Of a DNA stretch of 64,000 nucleotides, positions 2 to 7,737 are shown one piece after another. Every line of letters begins with the position of its first letter. The first letter of the stretch is position 1. The stretch spans positions 366,354-430,353 of the forward strand of contig NZ_JADOTT010000002.1 in the NCBI RefSeq assembly GCF_016817355.1, in the 5' to 3' direction. The notes below the pieces were generated by a model. It saw only the letters and a program-made list of their open reading frames with translations, did not search any database and had not been told where the DNA came from. The translations under genes were made by a program, and so were the position numbers. Source of the DNA: Maricaulis parjimensis. Lineage in GTDB: Bacteria > Pseudomonadota > Alphaproteobacteria > Caulobacterales > Maricaulaceae.

Positions 2-1063
2 GATTCCCTCTACGAGGCCGGCCGCCTGTCGGCAGATGCCGACGCCTTGCGCGCCGAAGCCGAGCTGGAAAGCGGTTGGGTTGAACTCTCCGACACCCTG
101 CCCAGCATTCTGGTGGAAACCGGTGAAACCCATCTTCGTCTCACCGCCTTGTCGGCCGATGGCCGTTCGGCGCGCGCGGAAAGCCTTCTCGGGGACGAAA
201 CCGGCAGCGAACTGGCGGACTGGTCGCTCTATGTGATCGATACGCCGGAAGCGCGCCGCCGTGTGTCCGATCAGCTGATCGTCTGGACGCGGGCCTTGGT
301 CGATCGCGGCCTGGTTTCGCTGGATTTCAACACAGCACTTTTTGCCAATGCGGACAGCCGCGAACCGGAACTGGCCGGGGTGAAGGGCGCTCTGTTCGGC
401 TCCATCCTGACTATGCTGATCACCCTGACCCTGTCGGTCCCGGTGGGCGTATTCACGGCGCTCTATCTGGAAGAATACGCGCCGAAGAACCGGTTCACGG
501 ACCTGATTGAGGTCAATATCAACAATCTCGCGGCCGTTCCTTCCATCGTGTTCGGTCTGCTGGGCCTGGCGGTCTTCATCAACTCTTTCGGCCTGCCGCG
601 ATCAGCACCCCTGGTTGGCGGTTTGGTCTTGTCCCTGATGACGCTGCCGACCGTGATCATCGCGACGCGGGCCGCGCTGAAAGCGGTTCCGGTGTCCATC
701 CGCCAGGCCGCGCTGGCTGTCGGCGCGTCCAAGACGCAGACCGTTTTCCACCACGTCCTGCCGCTGGCCGCGCCGGGCATTTTGACCGGATCCATCATTG
801 GCCTGGCCCAGGCGATGGGTGAAACCGCGCCGCTTCTGATGATTGGCATGGTCGCCTTCATCGCCGACGCGCCGACCCTGGGTCTGGAAGGTTTGACCCA
901 GCCGGCCACCGTGATGCCTGTCCAGGTCTTCCTCTGGTCCGATGGTGCCGAGCGTGCCTTCGAGGCGCGGACCGCGGCCGCAATCCTTGTTCTTCTGGCG
1001 CTGATGATCGGGTTCAATGCCCTGGCCATCTATCTGCGCCGCCGTTTCGAGCGGAGATGGTAA
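2..1063 (+). CDS. pstA: Phosphate ABC transporter permease PstA (5' truncated)
   Basis: Inner-membrane permease of the high-affinity phosphate importer PstSCAB. The frame is open to the left edge, so the true start lies upstream of the window. The N-terminal part (about 110 residues) is hydrophilic and probably periplasmic. It is followed by the membrane domain beginning at [19 protein letters not shown] and the EAA-type loop ([20 protein letters not shown]) that contacts the ATPase. The stop overlaps the candidate pstB start, and pstB, phoU and phoB follow on the same strand, as in Caulobacter-type pho clusters. pstS and pstC are presumably upstream but are not visible. Confidence 0.93.
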
Positions 1064-1881
1064 ACCCCATGCCCGATAATCAATCCCATCCCGACATGAG
1101 TGCCGGTGCCGGCCAGGCCGAACTGCCGATCAAGGTCCAGGCCCGTGATGTCTGCGTGAGCTATAGCGGCAAGCAGGCGCTGAACCATGTCTCCATCGAC
1201 GTGCCGGACCGGTCCGTGACCGCCTTCATCGGCCCGTCGGGCTGCGGCAAGTCGACCTTCCTGCGCTGTCTCAACCGCATGAATGACACAATCGAGGGCG
1301 CCAAGGTCGTCGGGTCGCTGAAGATCGATGGTCTGGAAGTGAACGACAAATCCGTCGACCCGGTCGTGCTGCGCGCGAATGTCGGCATGGTGTTCCAGAA
1401 GCCGAACCCGTTTCCCAAATCCATCTATGACAATGTCGCCTATGGGCCGCGCATCCATGGTCTCGCCCTGTCCAAGGACGAGCTGGACGCGATTGTCGAG
1501 GACTCGCTGAAAAAGGCGGGGCTGTGGGATGAGGTGGCTGACCGGCTGAACCATCCCGGTACCGGCCTGTCCGGTGGCCAGCAGCAGCGCCTGGTCATTG
1601 CCCGCGCCATCGCGGTCAATCCGGAAGTCATCCTGATGGACGAGCCCTGCTCGGCGCTGGACCCGATTGCCACGGCCAAGATCGAGGAGCTGATCGATGA
1701 GCTGCGGGAAAACTACTGCATCATCATCGTGACGCACTCCATGCAGCAGGCGGCGCGGGTCTCCCAGCAGACCGCCTTCTTCCACATGGGCAATCTCGTG
1801 GAATACGGCACGACCGAAGAGATCTTCACCAATCCGCGCGATCCGCGCACCCAGGACTACATTACCGGGCGTTTCGGCTAG
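1057..1881 (+). CDS. pstB: Phosphate ABC transporter ATPase PstB
   Basis: ATPase that powers phosphate import with PstA/PstC. Walker [10 protein letters not shown] is at residues 59-67, the ABC signature is LSGGQQQR, Walker B is VILMDEP, and a switch histidine lies in VTHS. Length (about 270 residues) is usual for PstB. Two starts are possible: ATG 1057, overlapping the pstA stop, or ATG 1069 just after it. GGAG at 1053-1056 is too close for the first and about 12 nt from the second, so the start is uncertain. Translational coupling to pstA is likely. Confidence 0.95.
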
Positions 1882-1909
1882 AGGCCGGCCCTATTGAGGA
1901 GGTGGCGCC

Positions 1910-2599
1910 ATGGCGCTGTCCAAGACTGCACATATCGTCACGGCCTATGGCGAAGAGCTGGACCAGCTCAATGACGAACTCGCCCGGATGGGCGGACTGG
2001 TGGAAACCCAGCTCACGGCCGCCATCAATGCGATCGTGCGGCGCGATGCCGGCGTGGCCGGCGAGGTGCGCCAGCGCGAGAAGCAGGTCAATGCGATGCA
2101 CGTGGACATCGAAAAGCGCGTGCTGCGCCTTTTCGCCCTGCGTCAGCCGCTCGCCACAGATCTGCGCATGACGATCTCGGCCCTGAAAATCTCCACGGAT
2201 CTGGAACGGGTCGGGGATCTGGCCAAGAATATCGCCTACCGCGCCAAGGACCTTTCCGCCTATCCGGCCCTGGGCCTGATGGACCGGGTCGAGCGCCTGG
2301 GCGCCATCGTCATCCAGCAATTGCACGAAGTTCTGGACGCCCTGTCATCGCTCGATGTCGAGCCGGCCATCCGGGTCTGGCGCGCCGATGACGAGGTGGA
2401 TGAGCGCTATAATGCGCTGGTCCGCGAAATGCTGATTTCGATGGGTGAGGACAGCAGCCTGGTCGAGCCGGGCGTGCACATACTCTTCGTCGCCAAGAAC
2501 CTGGAACGCATCGGTGATCACGCGACCAATATCGCGGAAGCGCTGCATTTCATGGTGACCGCCGCGCCGCTTGAAGCGGACACCCCTCCGGCATCCTGA
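1910..2599 (+). CDS. phoU: Phosphate signalling protein PhoU
   Basis: All-helical negative regulator that links the Pst transporter to the PhoR/PhoB two-component system. The protein is 229 residues with the two repeated PhoU three-helix units; the metal-binding-type motifs are DLERVGDLAKNIAYRA in the first half and NLERIGDHATNIAEA in the second. The start is fixed by a strong Shine-Dalgarno (GAGGAGG) a few bases upstream of ATG 1910. It lies 28 nt after pstB in the same operon. Confidence 0.95.
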   Translation: MALSKTAHIVTAYGEELDQLNDELARMGGLVETQLTAAINAIVRRDAGVAGEVRQREKQVNAMHVDIEKRVLRLFALRQPLATDLRMTISALKISTDLERVGDLAKNIAYRAKDLSAYPALGLMDRVERLGAIVIQQLHEVLDALSSLDVEPAIRVWRADDEVDERYNALVREMLISMGEDSSLVEPGVHILFVAKNLERIGDHATNIAEALHFMVTAAPLEADTPPAS

Positions 2600-2624
2600 A
2601 GACCTTGATCGTGGAGAGACAGGG

Positions 2625-3314
2625 ATGAAGCCTCAAGTACTCGTGGTCGAAGACGAAGACGCCCTCGCCACCCTGCTGCAGTACAATCTCGAGAAGGAAG
2701 GCTATACGGTTGCGGTCGCCCGCGATGGTGAGGAAGCCCTCATCCAGGCCGAGGAAACCACGCCGGACCTGGTCCTGTGCGACTGGATGCTGCCGAAAGT
2801 CTCCGGCATCGAGGTGTGCCGCCGCCTGCGCGGCCGCCAGGAAACAGCCAATGTGCCGATCATCATGCTGACGGCACGCGGTGAGGAAACCGATCGCGTG
2901 CGCGGTCTGGATACGGGCGCTGACGATTATGTCGTGAAACCCTTCTCCATGACCGAGCTGTTTGCCCGCATCCGCGCCGTGCTGCGCCGGATCCGTCCGG
3001 GCCTGGCCGAGGATGTCATCAATGCCGGTGATATCACGATGGACCGGGTCGCCCACCGGGTGAAGCGCGCCGATCGGGAAATCCATCTCGGCCCGACCGA
3101 GTTCCGCCTGCTGGACTATCTCATGCAGCACCCGGGCCGTGTCTTTTCCCGCGAACAGCTGCTGGACGCTGTCTGGGGTTCCGACGTCTATGTCGAGGCC
3201 CGTACGGTGGACGTCCATGTCGGGCGTCTGCGCAAGGCGCTCAACAACAAGGAAGAGCGTGACCCGATCAGAACGGTCCGCTCCGCGGGCTATGCCTTCG
3301 ACGTGAATGCGTGA
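2625..3314 (+). CDS. phoB: Phosphate regulon response regulator PhoB
   Basis: OmpR/PhoB-class transcription factor that activates the phosphate-starvation regulon. Receiver domain occupies residues 1-120 with the acidic pair in VVEDED, phospho-acceptor Asp53 in LCDWMLPK and Lys in VVKPF. The C-terminal winged helix spans about 130-225 (HLGPTEFRLLDYLM, VFSREQLLDAVWG, TVDVHVGRLRKAL). ATG 2625 is chosen because GGAGA and GGG precede it and the receiver begins at once; an earlier in-frame ATG at 2571 would overlap phoU and add 18 unrelated residues. No phoR follows, so the kinase is probably upstream of the window. Confidence 0.95.
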   Translation: MKPQVLVVEDEDALATLLQYNLEKEGYTVAVARDGEEALIQAEETTPDLVLCDWMLPKVSGIEVCRRLRGRQETANVPIIMLTARGEETDRVRGLDTGADDYVVKPFSMTELFARIRAVLRRIRPGLAEDVINAGDITMDRVAHRVKRADREIHLGPTEFRLLDYLMQHPGRVFSREQLLDAVWGSDVYVEARTVDVHVGRLRKALNNKEERDPIRTVRSAGYAFDVNA

Positions 3315-3318
3315 TTGA

Positions 3319-3341
3319 GGGGCGCTGCGGCGCCCCTTTTT
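3319..3341 (+). terminator. Rho-independent terminator of the pst-pho operon
   Basis: A 7-bp GC stem (GGGGCGC / GCGCCCC, loop TGCG) is followed directly by TTTTT. It begins 5 nt after the phoB stop and abuts the stop codon of the convergent LysR gene. Confidence 0.9.
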
Positions 3342-4250
3342 CTATCCGTCCAGTATCTGAGCGGCGGCTTCGCTCAGCACATCGGCGATGGCCTGGAAGC
3401 CGGAGGCCAGGGGCGAGTTGTTGCGCCAGATCAGGCAGATGTCGCGCTGGGCTCCGGGGTCGTCGATCAGGCGGTAGACCAGGCTGTTGTCGCGTTCGGC
3501 CTCGCACCGGACATAGAGTTCGGGCAGGACGGCGATGCCGGCGCCCAGAGCCGACATGTGCCTTATGGCGTCCAGACTGGTCCCTTCATAATCGGAGGGA
3601 AGGTGGCCATCGGCCCGCTGCGCCAGGTCGGCGACGAGCCGGTTGAGGCGGTGACCCAGCCCCAGTGTCAAAAAAGCCCGACCGGACAGCTCGTCCAGTG
3701 TCAGCGGACCGGAATTCCGGGCGAGGGCGTCGTCGGGCGGAAAGGCGGCCCATAGACGTTCATGGAACAGCGGCGCGCTGACGCAACCGGGATGGTCTTC
3801 CGGCGCAGAAATCACAATATCCATCCGCCCGTCCGAGAGCGCCTGGTTCAGAATGACGGAGGATTCCTCACGGATCGATAGCCGCAATTGCGGATAGCGC
3901 CCGTGCAGCCGGGCTGTGCAGCGTGGCAGGAGGTAAGGGCCGATGGTTGGCAGGACGCCGAGGCGGATCTGTCCGATCAAGCCATCCTGGCCAAACTGGG
4001 CGAGGCGTTTGATGTCGGACATGGAGGTGAGCACGGCACGAGCGCGCTCCAACAACTCCCGGCCAAGCGGTGTCGCTATCGCGCCATGACGGCCCCGTTC
4101 GAACACTTTGAAGCCCAGATGGGATTCCGCTTCGGCGATTTGTGCAGACAGGCTGGGCTGGCTGACGTGCAAGCTCTGGGCGGCGGCCGAGAACCGGCCG
4201 GTTTCATCGACGGCAACGAGGTATTCAAGCTGTCGGAAAGTCGGGCGCAT
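3342..4250 (-). CDS. LysR-family regulator of the OxyR type, redox cysteines absent
   Basis: DNA-binding regulator, probably of the divergent bicarbonate transporter. The N-terminal HTH (FRQLEYLVAVDETGRFSAAAQSLHVSQPSLSAQI) and the effector domain starting at GQIRLGVLPTIGPYLLP resemble OxyR throughout. In E. coli OxyR the peroxide-sensing cysteines 199 and 208 lie in GHCLRDQAMGFC; the aligned segment here is GHRLNRLVADLA, so both are lost (Arg and Ala). Peroxide sensing by the standard disulfide is therefore unlikely. The gene is convergent with phoB and divergent from the sbtA-type gene, with 205 nt between. SD is TGAGG. Function as a bicarbonate or carbon-status regulator is inferred from position only. 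Confidence 0.85.
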   Translation of the reverse strand: MRPTFRQLEYLVAVDETGRFSAAAQSLHVSQPSLSAQIAEAESHLGFKVFERGRHGAIATPLGRELLERARAVLTSMSDIKRLAQFGQDGLIGQIRLGVLPTIGPYLLPRCTARLHGRYPQLRLSIREESSVILNQALSDGRMDIVISAPEDHPGCVSAPLFHERLWAAFPPDDALARNSGPLTLDELSGRAFLTLGLGHRLNRLVADLAQRADGHLPSDYEGTSLDAIRHMSALGAGIAVLPELYVRCEAERDNSLVYRLIDDPGAQRDICLIWRNNSPLASGFQAIADVLSEAAAQILDG

Positions 4251-4253
4251 TCC

Positions 4254-4290
4254 ATAGCCTCAGGCTAATTGATCGGTAATTCACATATAT
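4254..4290. promoter_or_regulatory. Putative LysR/OxyR-type operator
   Basis: Immediately upstream of the LysR gene is the interrupted dyad TAGCC-TCA-GGCTA (4255-4267), which fits the LysR T-N11-A pattern. Read as the OxyR consensus ATAGnTnnnAnCTAT-N7-ATAGnTnnnAnCTAT, positions 4254-4268 match 7 of 10 fixed bases, and positions 4276-4290, exactly 7 nt further on, match another 7 of 10. The left dyad overlaps the regulator's own SD, which suggests autoregulation. Binding is inferred. Confidence 0.5.
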
Positions 4291-4385
4291 TGTTATTTAT
4301 CACGGTCGAGGTCTAGAGCGTGCCCATCCCGCTCTGCGGTTCCGGCCTGTTCGATGGTCCTGTCAGTGTCGGCGCCCAGGGTCTT

Positions 4386-4431
4386 GTCCGGCGGTTGTTG
4401 CCTCGCCCCCCTCTTGCAGCAACCGCCGGAC
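4386..4431 (+). promoter_or_regulatory. Long hairpin in the leader of the bicarbonate transporter gene
   Basis: Arms 4386-4401 and 4416-4431 are complementary over 16 bp (15 Watson-Crick pairs plus one G-U in RNA) around a 14-nt pyrimidine-rich loop. The stem ends 11 nt before the GGAGG Shine-Dalgarno (4443-4447) of the gene starting at 4456. There is no U-tract after it, so it is not a simple terminator. It may act as a translation or RNA-stability element, or as a DNA dyad bound by a regulator. Confidence 0.65.
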
Positions 4432-4455
4432 GTTTCATGTCTGGAGGCTTGTTTC

Positions 4456-5421
4456 TTGGAACTTGGATCCATTGCCGTGGCGACTTTCGCCTCACCCCCC
4501 GTTCTTTTCTTCATTCTTGGCCTGGCAGCGGCGTTCATTCGCTCCGACCTCAAATTTCCCGAGGCTTTTGCCAAGGGATTGTCACTTTTCCTGATCATGG
4601 CGATCGGCTTCAAAGGTGGCGCGGAAATGGCCCGTGCCAGCCTGAGTGATGTTGTGCCGGTCCTGGTCGCCGGGATCATCCTGTCGGCCGGCCTGCCGGC
4701 GCTGAGCTTCGGCCTGCTGCGGACGACCTCGTCCCTGCCGCGGGTCGATGTTGCCGCCATCGCCGCACACTATGGATCGATCTCGATCGTGACCTTCATT
4801 GCAGCCACCGATGCGGCACGCCTTCTGGGTCTGCCGGGTGATGGCGCGATGGTGGCGGTTGCCGCCGCAATGGAGGCTCCGGCCATCCTGACCGGTCTTC
4901 TTCTTGCCGGAGCGGCCGGCCGTACTGGTGGGCTTCGCCTGGTCGAGCCGCTCACCAATGGCTCGATTGTCCTGCTGCTGGGCGCGTTCGTGATTGGCTG
5001 GGTGTCAGGGGATGCCGGGATGGCGGCTGTGTCACCGCTCTTTGTGGATGCCTTCCGCGGCGTGCTTTGCCTCTTCCTGCTGGATATGGGCCTGATTGCC
5101 GGCCGGGGACTTGTCGAGCATGGCCGGCGGATGAAACCGGCCGTGGTCCTGCACGGTCTCTACATGCCGCTGGTCTCCGCGAGCATCGCCCTTGGCATGG
5201 CGGCCCTGATCGGTCTGACACCGGGCAATGCTGCCTTGCTGATGACACTCGCCGCGTCCGCCTCCTATATCGCGGTTCCCGCCGCCATGCGCCTGGCACT
5301 GCCGGATGCGCGGCCTGCCATGTCGCTCACCCTGTCGCTCGGGATTACTTTCCCCTTCAATCTCCTGCTGGGAATTCCGCTCTACTTCACCCTGGCGCAA
5401 CTGGTTCTGGGAGGTCAGTGA
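4456..5421 (+). CDS. SbtA-family (DUF897) sodium-dependent bicarbonate permease
   Basis: Predicted inner-membrane sodium/bicarbonate symporter of 321 residues with about ten hydrophobic segments in two inverted halves, as in cyanobacterial SbtA (GLSLFLIMAIGFKGGAEMA; HYGSISIVTFIAA; LLDMGLIAGRG; ASASYIAVPAAMRLALP). The cyanobacterial central cytoplasmic loop is short here, as in proteobacterial members. TTG 4456 is the best start: GGAGG lies 8 nt upstream and the membrane domain begins at once. An upstream in-frame ATG (4354) would translate through the leader hairpin. The stop overlaps the next start (TGATG), so the two are coupled. Substrate is inferred from family. Confidence 0.8.
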   Translation: MELGSIAVATFASPPVLFFILGLAAAFIRSDLKFPEAFAKGLSLFLIMAIGFKGGAEMARASLSDVVPVLVAGIILSAGLPALSFGLLRTTSSLPRVDVAAIAAHYGSISIVTFIAATDAARLLGLPGDGAMVAVAAAMEAPAILTGLLLAGAAGRTGGLRLVEPLTNGSIVLLLGAFVIGWVSGDAGMAAVSPLFVDAFRGVLCLFLLDMGLIAGRGLVEHGRRMKPAVVLHGLYMPLVSASIALGMAALIGLTPGNAALLMTLAASASYIAVPAAMRLALPDARPAMSLTLSLGITFPFNLLLGIPLYFTLAQLVLGGQ

Positions 5422-5726
5422 TGACGCAATCTGAAACCCATATTCGGTTCGAACTGGAAATCGATTCCGTGCAGGTATCCCGCCTGGAGGACCTGCTGGA
5501 CCGGCTCAGCGTAGAGCGCTGGCTGGTCTTGCCGGGGCAGTCAGGGCGTACGCCGGAGGGCCGCTGGAACCGGACCGGTCAGATTGCGCCGTCCGGACGC
5601 CGGGTGCTGGCTGTGCTGACACTGACGCAGGATGAGGCGGACCGGATCAGCTCTGAATTGCACACCACGCTCGAACAGTTGCATGGCGACATCATCGCCT
5701 TCCCCGTCTCTGCGCGGTTCGGCTAG
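5421..5726 (+). CDS. Small PII-like protein coupled to the SbtA-type transporter
   Basis: A 101-residue protein with the length and beta-alpha-beta order of a GlnB-like ferredoxin fold: strand 6-15, helix 17-35, a Gly/Arg-rich T-loop-like segment (GQSGRTPEGRWNRTGQ), strand RRVLAVLTLT, helix and a last strand ending IIAFPVSARFG. SbtA genes in cyanobacteria and autotrophic proteobacteria are commonly followed by a PII-like partner (SbtB or CPII) that binds adenine nucleotides and gates the transporter. The one-base overlap with the upstream stop supports co-translation. The assignment rests on context and fold-like pattern; direct sequence identity to SbtB is low. Confidence 0.65.
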   Translation: MTQSETHIRFELEIDSVQVSRLEDLLDRLSVERWLVLPGQSGRTPEGRWNRTGQIAPSGRRVLAVLTLTQDEADRISSELHTTLEQLHGDIIAFPVSARFG

Positions 5727-5751
5727 GCTGAAAGCGGTCAATGGCCGGAAC

Positions 5752-5784
5752 AAAAAAAGGGCGCGCGAATTTCGCGCGCCCTTT
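5752..5784. terminator. Bidirectional terminator between the PII-like gene and the carbonic anhydrase gene
   Basis: A 14-bp perfect stem (5756-5769 with 5771-5784) is flanked by A7 on the left and TTT on the right. It therefore ends with a U-tract on both strands, better on the minus strand where it follows the carbonic anhydrase gene. Confidence 0.9.
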
Positions 5785-5811
5785 GTGCTGTCGGGGCCGG
5801 ATGGCCGTGGA

Positions 5812-6543
5812 TCAATCGTCCAGCAGAACGTAGCGGCGATTGAGTGGCTGCGGCGGGCGGGCATTCTCACCGACCAGGCTGACAAAGGCATCGACCTGTT
5901 CCTGCGAAACCGTCAGCGGAGACGTGAATACGGTCCACGAAACGATCTCCGAACAGGGCGGGGTCGTCAGCGATCCTTCATAGCGGTAGGCGGTCTGGTC
6001 CGCCGGCAGAAGGCTTGTCAGGTCCAGCGAAGTGTCGATGGACTGGCGTTCACCGGGCTCGCCGATGGCCGACCACAGTGCATCGACCGTCGCGTTGGCG
6101 GCGCCCGTTTCAAAGAGCACGCCGACTACGGCGAGGCCCGTGCCATTGGAGGTCACGAAATGAACTTCCAGCGGGAATGACGCGCCATCCACATGGTGTT
6201 CGGAGGCGGCGTGGAAGTGGAATTGCAGCAGATCATACGTGTCGCCGTTCAGCTCCAATTGTGCTGCGCCGGACGGCATGTGGTAGGTCACACCGTGGGC
6301 ATTGCGCTCAGCCTCGAAACCGCTGATTTCGCCGAAACTGAGAACCGGCTTTACCCCATCGCTGGGCAGGGCCTGCGTGAGGTCGATCGGGCTTTGCTGC
6401 GTTCCGGCACTGCAGACCGCGTATTCCGGAGCGAGTTGGCCCCAGTTTTCCGGCGCGCCGGCGCCTTCATAACCCCATTCATCAGCCTGGGCTGCACCCA
6501 GGGTGCCCGCTGCACCCAGCAGGCCGGCAAGCATGTATTTCAT
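5812..6543 (-). CDS. Periplasmic alpha-class carbonic anhydrase
   Basis: Zinc enzyme interconverting CO2 and bicarbonate in the periplasm. A Sec signal peptide (about residues 1-20, ending GAAQA) is followed by the alpha-CA fold: WGY near the mature N-terminus, QQSPIDL, the zinc histidines in LLQFHFHAASEHHVDG and EVHFV, and SLTTPPCSEIVSW near the C-terminus. The 243-residue length is normal. ATG 6543 is selected by GGAG 6 nt upstream; a longer frame would add a non-signal extension. It converges on the SbtA/PII pair across a shared terminator, so a joint role in bicarbonate supply is plausible. Confidence 0.93.
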   Translation of the reverse strand: MKYMLAGLLGAAGTLGAAQADEWGYEGAGAPENWGQLAPEYAVCSAGTQQSPIDLTQALPSDGVKPVLSFGEISGFEAERNAHGVTYHMPSGAAQLELNGDTYDLLQFHFHAASEHHVDGASFPLEVHFVTSNGTGLAVVGVLFETGAANATVDALWSAIGEPGERQSIDTSLDLTSLLPADQTAYRYEGSLTTPPCSEIVSWTVFTSPLTVSQEQVDAFVSLVGENARPPQPLNRRYVLLDD

Positions 6544-6711
6544 GGCATCTCCTCTCTGTAGCCGAGGGCGATGTGGGGTTTTCCGGTATTGGTATCCAAT
6601 TGAATTAAGCCTCGCCTTCAATAGTCTAAAGCTATGGAATAGGTGGCGGCCGAAGCGCTGGACCCGTTGGTGCGGATCACGTCACACTCGGATCGATCGT
6701 GGAGGCATCGC

Positions 6712-7737
6712 ATGCGGCCCATTGCCCAGCTCTTCTTGACGGGATTTGTCCTGATATCGGCCTGCGGACCGTCAACGGGACAGGCTGTGCCCGAGCCCGC
6801 GCGACAATCGCTCGATGTCGAGGCGCCGCCATTGTCGCGCTGCATGAACCTCTCCAATGCGCTGGAAGCGAATTATGAGGGCGAGTGGGGCTATACGATC
6901 CGGTTTGACCATATTGATGCCATTGCCGATGCCGGATTTGATGCGGTCCGTGTCCCGGTGCGCTGGTCAGCGCATCTGTCCGGACCGGATCACCGGATTG
7001 ATCCGGCGCTTCTGGCACGTGTGGACGGGATCATTGCGCATGCCCGGTCCCGCGGCCTTGCCGTGATCCTGGATGTCCATCATTTCGAGGCGATGATGGA
7101 TGATCCGCTGGGCCAATTGCCGGTGCTGGAGACGATTTGGCGGCAATTGGCGGCGCATTATGCCGACCAGCCGGACGATCTTGTCTTTGAAATCCTGAAT
7201 GAACCAACCGACCGGGTCAGCGCTGCCCAGGTGGATGCGATCAATGCGCGGATCCTTCCGGTGATCCGGGCGGTGTCGCCGCAACGGTGGGTGATCCTCA
7301 CCTCGGCCCGTTGGAACAATATTGACGGACTGGAACAGGCGGCCGCCCTGCCGCCAGATCCGCGCGTGATGATGACGGTGCATTATTACGCGCCCTTCGA
7401 CTTCACCCATCAGGGCGCGCCCTGGTCCAACCGCACAGAAACGGGGATCAGCTGGGGCGGGCCGCGCGACGAGTTGGCCCTGGCGCAGGATTTCGAGGCG
7501 ATCGCGGCCCAGATGTCAGCGCGAAACGTGCCCGTCTTGCTCGGCGAGTTTGGCGTTTATGCCGGGGTGCCGGAGCATTTGCGCGCGCGCTGGGTCGGGG
7601 CCGTGCGCGAGGCGGCCGAGGCGCAGGGCATGGCCTGGTGCCATTGGGGCTTCGCCAGCTCCCTTCGCAGTTATGACCTCGAGGCGGACGCATGGATCCC
7701 GGCCATGCGCGAGGCGCTTCTGCCGGGGTCCGATTAA
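6712..7737 (+). CDS. Glycoside hydrolase family 5 lipoprotein (endoglucanase-like)
   Basis: Predicted beta-glycan hydrolase anchored as a lipoprotein: the N-terminus ends in the lipobox LISAC. The GH5 barrel begins with LSNALEANYEGEWG. The acid/base glutamate is Glu164 in FEILNEPTD and the nucleophile Glu279 in VLLGEFGVY; the histidine motifs VHHFE and VHYYAPF are also present. Length is 341 residues. ATG 6712 has GGAGG 6 nt upstream. It stands alone, divergent from the carbonic anhydrase. The glycan substrate (cellulose, mannan or a self-glycan) cannot be told from sequence. Confidence 0.88.
   Translation: MRPIAQLFLTGFVLISACGPSTGQAVPEPARQSLDVEAPPLSRCMNLSNALEANYEGEWGYTIRFDHIDAIADAGFDAVRVPVRWSAHLSGPDHRIDPALLARVDGIIAHARSRGLAVILDVHHFEAMMDDPLGQLPVLETIWRQLAAHYADQPDDLVFEILNEPTDRVSAAQVDAINARILPVIRAVSPQRWVILTSARWNNIDGLEQAAALPPDPRVMMTVHYYAPFDFTHQGAPWSNRTETGISWGGPRDELALAQDFEAIAAQMSARNVPVLLGEFGVYAGVPEHLRARWVGAVREAAEAQGMAWCHWGFASSLRSYDLEADAWIPAMREALLPGSD

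Follow-up and report, generated by a model that had tools for sequence, protein, structure and literature searches.

What does a bicarbonate permease of the cyanobacterial SbtA kind, coupled to a PII-like protein, do in a bacterium in which no RuBisCO can be found? The question is raised by a locus in a 64,000-nucleotide stretch of the genome of Maricaulis parjimensis (Caulobacterales; NCBI RefSeq assembly GCF_016817355.1, contig NZ_JADOTT010000002.1, forward strand; hereafter, the window), for which the original prediction had proposed a bicarbonate uptake module of four genes. All four were confirmed: a LysR-type regulator (302 amino acids; 3342-4250, minus strand; PF00126 and PF03466), a divergently oriented SbtA-like permease (321 amino acids, TTG start; 4456-5421, plus strand), a divergent PII-like protein (101 amino acids; 5421-5726, plus strand), and a convergent α-carbonic anhydrase (243 amino acids; 5812-6543, minus strand). 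Because the same arrangement occurs in sister genomes, it is not due to chance; the closest named locus is that of Maricaulis alexandrii, whose SbtA is 90% identical to that of the window over the best segment. The module is real and conserved. Its kind is known, but its PII-like partner is altered, there is an exchange with the NhaA gene within the genus, and its leader lies outside Rfam. Its function can be inferred: with a probability of about 0.6, it is a regulated Na+/bicarbonate uptake module which serves carboxylation in a heterotroph.

The permease belongs to the SbtA family, as predicted. The hidden Markov model of Sbt_1 (PF05982) matched it over its full length (positions 1-308 of 308; E 1.3e-98; 330.6 bits versus a cut-off of 27), and the profile match in the PDB was SbtA 7cye (2.1e-23). 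A GGAGG motif (4443-4447, plus strand), the probable ribosome-binding site, lies upstream of the TTG at 4456. A longer SbtA starting from the ATG at 4354 is disfavored, as the first start codon of the open frame in a related locus (L035; loci and genomes other than those of the window, G000, are referred to by L and G numbers) is the equivalent of the TTG. The TGATG at 5419-5423, which had been taken to fuse permease and PII-like protein, is a one-base overlap of stop and start codons; the two proteins themselves are not fused.

The setting is that of a heterotroph, as had been presumed: a search of the genome that contains the window (3.35 Mb, 99.98% complete) found no RuBisCO large chain, and carbon fixation linked to RuBisCO was rejected on this ground. 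Across the 249 genomes of the order, Sbt_1 was present in 93, whereas the RuBisCO large chain was found in four (three over the cut-off), including only one of the 93 SbtA-positive genomes (G222). The surroundings of sbtA were compared in 183 loci with enough flanking sequence, comprising a set of 103, which takes in the window and to which certain genomes contribute several loci, and a set of 80 (the best 80 of 463), with genomes overlapping between the sets. A PII-like gene was located directly behind sbtA in 145 of the 183. Within 3 kb of sbtA, a β-carbonic anhydrase was encoded in 19/103 and 29/80 loci, an α-carbonic anhydrase in 6/103 and 2/80 (all Maricaulis), and NhaA in 15/103 and 6/80. 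The repeated linkage of SbtA to carbonic anhydrase in other families supports a role in inorganic carbon. The predicted family assignments have stood, but the surprise at such a module in a heterotroph has precedent: SbtA-like proteins of heterotrophs have already been published (PMC10117731; PMC10030771, SAR11; PMC12093963, Shewanella), and their occurrence in such hosts is therefore not surprising in itself. A limited literature search found no paper that joins Maricaulis, bicarbonate, and carbonic anhydrase.

For the uptake module, the following course of events would be expected. The LysR protein would bind a box next to its gene and control the divergent sbtA; SbtA would import HCO3- together with Na+; the PII-like protein would dock onto SbtA via its T-loop and gate the permease; the periplasmic α-carbonic anhydrase would either equilibrate CO2 and HCO3- outside of SbtA or recapture leaked CO2; and the imported HCO3- would feed ordinary carboxylases (anaplerosis and fatty-acid synthesis), a supply that would be of greatest importance when the pH is high or CO2 is scarce. 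The enzyme at the end of the locus is an α-carbonic anhydrase (PF00194, E 5.9e-40; PDB 4c3t, 1.2e-51) in which the zinc histidines are present by eye (HFH, EVH). Its predicted periplasmic placement is probable, judging by an N-terminus that, by eye, looks like a signal peptide. Besides this single α-enzyme, the genome encodes one β-carbonic anhydrase elsewhere.

The β-carbonic anhydrase was missing in 22 of the 249 genomes (20 listed, and G233 and G243 deduced by elimination); 13 of these 22 were SbtA-positive, compared with 80 of the 227 others (p 0.026). Among genomes lacking both the α- and the β-enzyme, the proportion was 12/18 versus 81/231 (p 0.009), and in genus g20, which was chosen after the data had been seen, it was 4/4 versus 3/15 (p 0.009). 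SbtA is over-represented where both enzymes are missing.

Several findings weigh against bicarbonate uptake as the function. The statistic on carbonic anhydrase loss comes from few genomes, makes no correction for kinship, and covers the α- and β-enzymes; its 12 genomes represent five genera and do not count as independent draws. Six genomes lacking the α- and β-enzymes also lack SbtA. An association of α-carbonic anhydrase with SbtA across the order found no support (22/52, p 0.42). One Maricaulis genome (G153; L216, 3096-5170) keeps phoB, lysR, and the α-carbonic anhydrase without sbtA and the PII-like gene and represents a natural deletion, and in G188 (L037, 5454-7135), one of the 12 genomes with neither an α- nor a β-carbonic anhydrase, the reading frames of both sbtA and DUF533 are broken in two, through either a sequencing fault or real decay. 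Finally, the substrate site deviates from that of Synechocystis SbtA, which served as the reference (residues from PMC8352866; 10 sequences aligned, window included). The equivalents of Ser114, Ser322, and Ser324 are retained as S110, S268, and S270, but Tyr140 and Ser327 are replaced by Ala136 and Ala273, in 10/10 aligned sequences, which means that the site is not the same as in Synechocystis SbtA. Of the four side chains proposed to bind HCO3- in the cyanobacterial protein (S114, Y140, S324, and S327), two thus differ (A136, A273), and mutation of any one of the four lowered cyanobacterial transport to ∼10-40% (PMC8352866). The permease likely carries bicarbonate all the same, but it is the gene linkage and, because two of four residues differ, not the binding site from which this substrate follows.

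The most serious competitor to bicarbonate uptake emerged from comparison within Maricaulis, where 12 of 19 genomes are SbtA-positive. Six of the 12 carry the α-carbonic anhydrase beside sbtA and no NhaA (G000, G049, G118, G138, G183, and G255), five carry NhaA and no α-carbonic anhydrase (G088, G098, G188, G251, and G252), and one has neither (G254); a naive Fisher test of α-carbonic anhydrase against NhaA, uncorrected for kinship, gave p 0.002. Likewise, the PII-like gene was directly behind sbtA in 7/7 of these genomes without NhaA there and in 0/5 with it. Within the genus, therefore, PII-like protein plus α-carbonic anhydrase and NhaA plus DUF533 replace each other. In the NhaA form, lysR is followed by divergent nhaA-DUF533-sbtA (L032, L033, and L037); for G251 and G252, the place of lysR was outside the stretch taken.

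Because of this linkage to NhaA, Na+/pH homeostasis is a possible role of the locus: the regulator would be an NhaR-like Na+/pH regulator, and SbtA and the α-carbonic anhydrase would maintain pH balance instead of a lost NhaA. Consistent with this, sbtA follows nhaA and DUF533 in all five of those genomes, the same LysR gene faces nhaA in three of them, NhaA was not found in the window's own genome, and NhaA and α-carbonic anhydrase exclude each other beside sbtA (5/0 versus 6/0). However, many SbtA-PII loci adjoin a β-carbonic anhydrase without NhaA, and in other genera, PII-like protein, SbtA, and NhaA coexist (L081, L048, and L053), which also led us to reject a general rule of exclusion between PII-like protein and NhaA. 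Na+/pH homeostasis as the primary function is accordingly considered rather unlikely. In Woodsholea (L081/L137), lysR, nhaA, DUF533, sbtA, and the PII-like gene stand all together, for which reason such a combined arrangement could be the older state. In L048 and L053, the divergent LysR gene stands in front of a single run made up of nhaA, a long permease-like gene, and sbtA-PII.

The partner of the permease had been predicted to be a PII-like protein. By itself, the 101-residue protein matched no Pfam family and nothing in the PDB, nor did a profile of five Maricaulis copies alone yield a PDB match; the evidence came through relatives. No gaps were needed to align the five-copy profile, from residue 4 to residue 89, to 15 proteins encoded behind other sbtA genes (hhalign 99.0%, E 7.6e-18), and BLASTP found 30/90 residues identical between the window's protein and one from Glycocaulis albus. 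Pfam P-II matched 59 of the 61 members of the family alignment with E values no higher than 0.1. A profile of the family, to which the window's protein contributed, retrieved from the PDB 5d4n (7.2e-16) and the SbtB proteins of Cyanobium (2.6e-8) and Synechocystis (9.9e-6). On account of these relatives, the protein is, by sequence homology over the PII core, a member of the PII superfamily. It is encoded directly behind sbtA and retains the RxxR of the T-loop (R48-W-N-R51 by alignment; also in L031 and L035, whereas L034 and L036 keep only the second arginine), together with Gly89; W49, R51, and G53 are invariant among the five aligned Maricaulis copies.

A standard SbtB it is not. The protein contains no cysteine and hence lacks the C-terminal CGPxGC R-loop of some SbtB proteins. 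In addition, of the 135 SbtA-coupled proteins with distinct sequences, 125 have a C-terminal segment resembling VSDVEVLRxxRF (scored by a pattern of hydrophobic positions, an R, a spacer of two or three residues, and F or L close to the end), which SbtB 6mm2 and 5d4n also show but which the window's protein lacks; the alignable part stops at residue 89 (hhalign) or 92 (BLASTP), where this segment begins. The other nine proteins without it are six further distinct Maricaulis copies and those of Woodsholea, Aestuariispira (L165), and a Geminicoccaceae metagenome-assembled genome (L150); outside Maricaulis, the cases at L150 (5790-6116) and L165 (8958-9254) are perhaps independent losses. The loss of the tail and the altered anatomy of the PII-like partner are among the new elements here. 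In GlnK, C-terminal arginines 101 and 103 contact phosphate (PMC7919409), and in SbtB, the T-loop R43xxR46 holds the phosphates of ATP (PMC10117731). Nucleotide binding may possibly have been lost from the window's protein; we do not claim that it has, given that RxxR and Gly89 are retained.

The protein also evolves fast. The ratio of nonsynonymous to synonymous substitution rates (dN/dS) was 0.21 and 0.39 for the window versus L031 and L035 and 0.13 for L034 versus L036, compared with 0.05-0.08 for sbtA. The PII-like/SbtA ratio of these values was 4.5 and 5.2 in the window's pairs and at most 3.4 among 97 other pairs, which partly overlap and passed filters on length, similarity, and synonymous divergence that the window's pairs failed. 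Constraint is relaxed but still present. That the gene is a decaying remnant without function, SbtA working alone, would be in line with the lost segment, with rate ratios above each of the 97 other pairs, and with the five Maricaulis genomes that have no PII-like gene behind sbtA; it is nevertheless improbable in view of dN/dS values of only 0.13-0.39, an open gene in all seven Maricaulis genomes without NhaA, and the three invariant residues.

How the module would be regulated was approached from the region between lysR and sbtA. The regulator has the HTH_1 and LysR_substrate domains of its family and, at 4254-4268 (no strand assigned), a box of the T-N11-A type, ATAGCCTCAGGCTAA. When 28 distinct stretches of 130 bases in front of these lysR genes were searched for motifs, 23 contained the pattern ATAG-N7-CTA[TA], compared with 0.18 on average and never more than 2 in 500 base shuffles; the pattern is present irrespective of whether the facing gene is sbtA or nhaA. 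The protein scored 180 bits with the NCBIfam OxyR model, under the cut-off of 329, and matched OxyR in the PDB at 1.4e-40. OxyR carries a GHC motif with the peroxidatic cysteine. In the window's protein, this motif reads GHR, and R, K, or H occupies the cysteine position in 34/34 aligned rows (the window counted twice, as were some genomes); with the cysteine replaced, identity as OxyR or a peroxide regulator was rejected. Elsewhere in the genome (C1:492975; L223), an OxyR-like gene with GHC lies, by eye, beside AhpC and AhpD and is probably the true OxyR.

Between the box and sbtA, a structured 5′ leader is predicted (4312-4455, plus strand, bounds approximate; from fold z-scores and a single-copy model, R1), with a z of -3.7 and none of 200 shuffles folding as well. 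Its hairpin P2 (4386-4431, plus strand; 16-nucleotide arms 94% complementary, C-rich 14-nucleotide loop), identified by folding and comparison of four genomes, has its inner stem replaced by a different paired sequence in L035 and L214. Four pairs were changed on both sides among the four genomes, and 97% of alignment cells were paired, versus 15-61% when slid. As many doubly changed pairs arose in 138/500 shuffles, and as high a covariation score in 3/500; given these results, and as the four genomes are two pairs of close relatives, the compensatory support from the alignment is modest. The remaining three leaders with a PII-like gene have different hairpins; among them, L034 gave a z of -2.5, and L036, with -0.3, folded no better than shuffles. 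In Rfam, there was no match to the hairpin near a gathering score (6C RNA, 18.6 bits versus 47, chance level). That the leader is a repeated genomic element found no support: each of the four training genomes contained one strong copy, the next best match elsewhere having E 0.001, with only 150 first-look candidates scored per genome. A second hairpin (4426-4444), pairing up to the ribosome-binding site, was discarded because by eye it is not kept in L035, and a pattern scan of 3200-6800 found no σ70-like promoter. In this Maricaulis clade, control of SbtA might have moved off the adenyl-nucleotide PII switch, with a PII-like partner that retains its docking loop but, its ligand-sensing tail rebuilt, responds to another signal or acts as a fixed gate, and with the single-copy leader and the non-OxyR LysR protein now sensing inorganic carbon, pH, or Na+; such a rewiring is regarded as quite improbable.

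The view that a different small anion (formate, acetate-like) is the substrate of the permease and that the carbonic anhydrase neighbor is incidental draws on the two differing HCO3- side chains and on the S268-A269-S270 motif, shared with Shewanella SO_3758, which was struck by a formate-tolerance mutation (PMC12093963), but the repeated linkage to both α- and β-carbonic anhydrases makes it quite improbable.

As to the remainder of the locus, a perfect hairpin at 5756-5784 (no strand assigned) is probably a bidirectional terminator between the convergent genes. Upstream, pstA-pstB-phoU-phoB (assigned by eye; 47-3314) directly adjoins lysR, and a PstS-like gene is located beyond lysR in L033. 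On the other side, a glycoside hydrolase family 5 protein (6712-7737; Pfam Cellulase, 2.9e-46) adjoins the module.

Within this order, many bacteria that lack RuBisCO have the pair of SbtA and a PII-like protein, which is often tied to carbonic anhydrase. Sister species of one genus that exchange PII and α-carbonic anhydrase for NhaA and DUF533 make the means by which heterotrophs secure bicarbonate open to testing, and the natural PII variants are useful for the unsettled question of how SbtB affects SbtA.

Among known systems, the locus resembles SbtA-SbtB of cyanobacteria (Synechocystis slr1512-slr1513), where a PII-like gene likewise comes immediately after that of an Sbt_1 permease. The two share residues equivalent to Ser114, Ser322, and Ser324, and an RxxR in the T-loop aligns with R43xxR46. 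Unlike the Synechocystis system, the window has no RuBisCO large chain to accompany it, Y140 and S327 are replaced, its PII-like protein lacks the CGPxGC R-loop and the C-terminal R..F segment, and a LysR box and leader hairpin precede the genes, with an α-carbonic anhydrase behind. The best PDB match of the family profile, 5d4n (7.2e-16), is named P-II there and, unlike the window's protein, has the C-terminal segment shared by the family; it is presumably of the CPII type and linked to Thiomonas, although a literature search for these names gave no paper. OxyR proteins are the closest relatives of the regulator in the PDB and NCBIfam, differing from it by the GHC cysteine. The relation between carbonic anhydrase loss and SbtA in the order resembles the transporter-versus-carbonic anhydrase patterns of archaea and of MpsAB in staphylococci, MpsAB and SbtA being unrelated protein families. 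In some autotrophic archaea, either a transporter or a cytoplasmic carbonic anhydrase is present (PMC10880623), and in Staphylococcus aureus, a heterotroph, the bicarbonate transporter MpsAB and carbonic anhydrase are interchangeable (PMC8567241). The Sbt permeases of SAR11 (IIIa) and Shewanella (SO_3758) belong to the same family and have heterotrophic hosts; the accessible parts of these reports (PMC10030771 and PMC12093963) describe no arrangement with PII, carbonic anhydrase, or LysR genes. SbtA-like permeases in heterotrophs were known already, whereas the anatomy of the PII-like protein, the swap with NhaA, the LysR box, the leader, and the carbonic anhydrase loss statistic are new.

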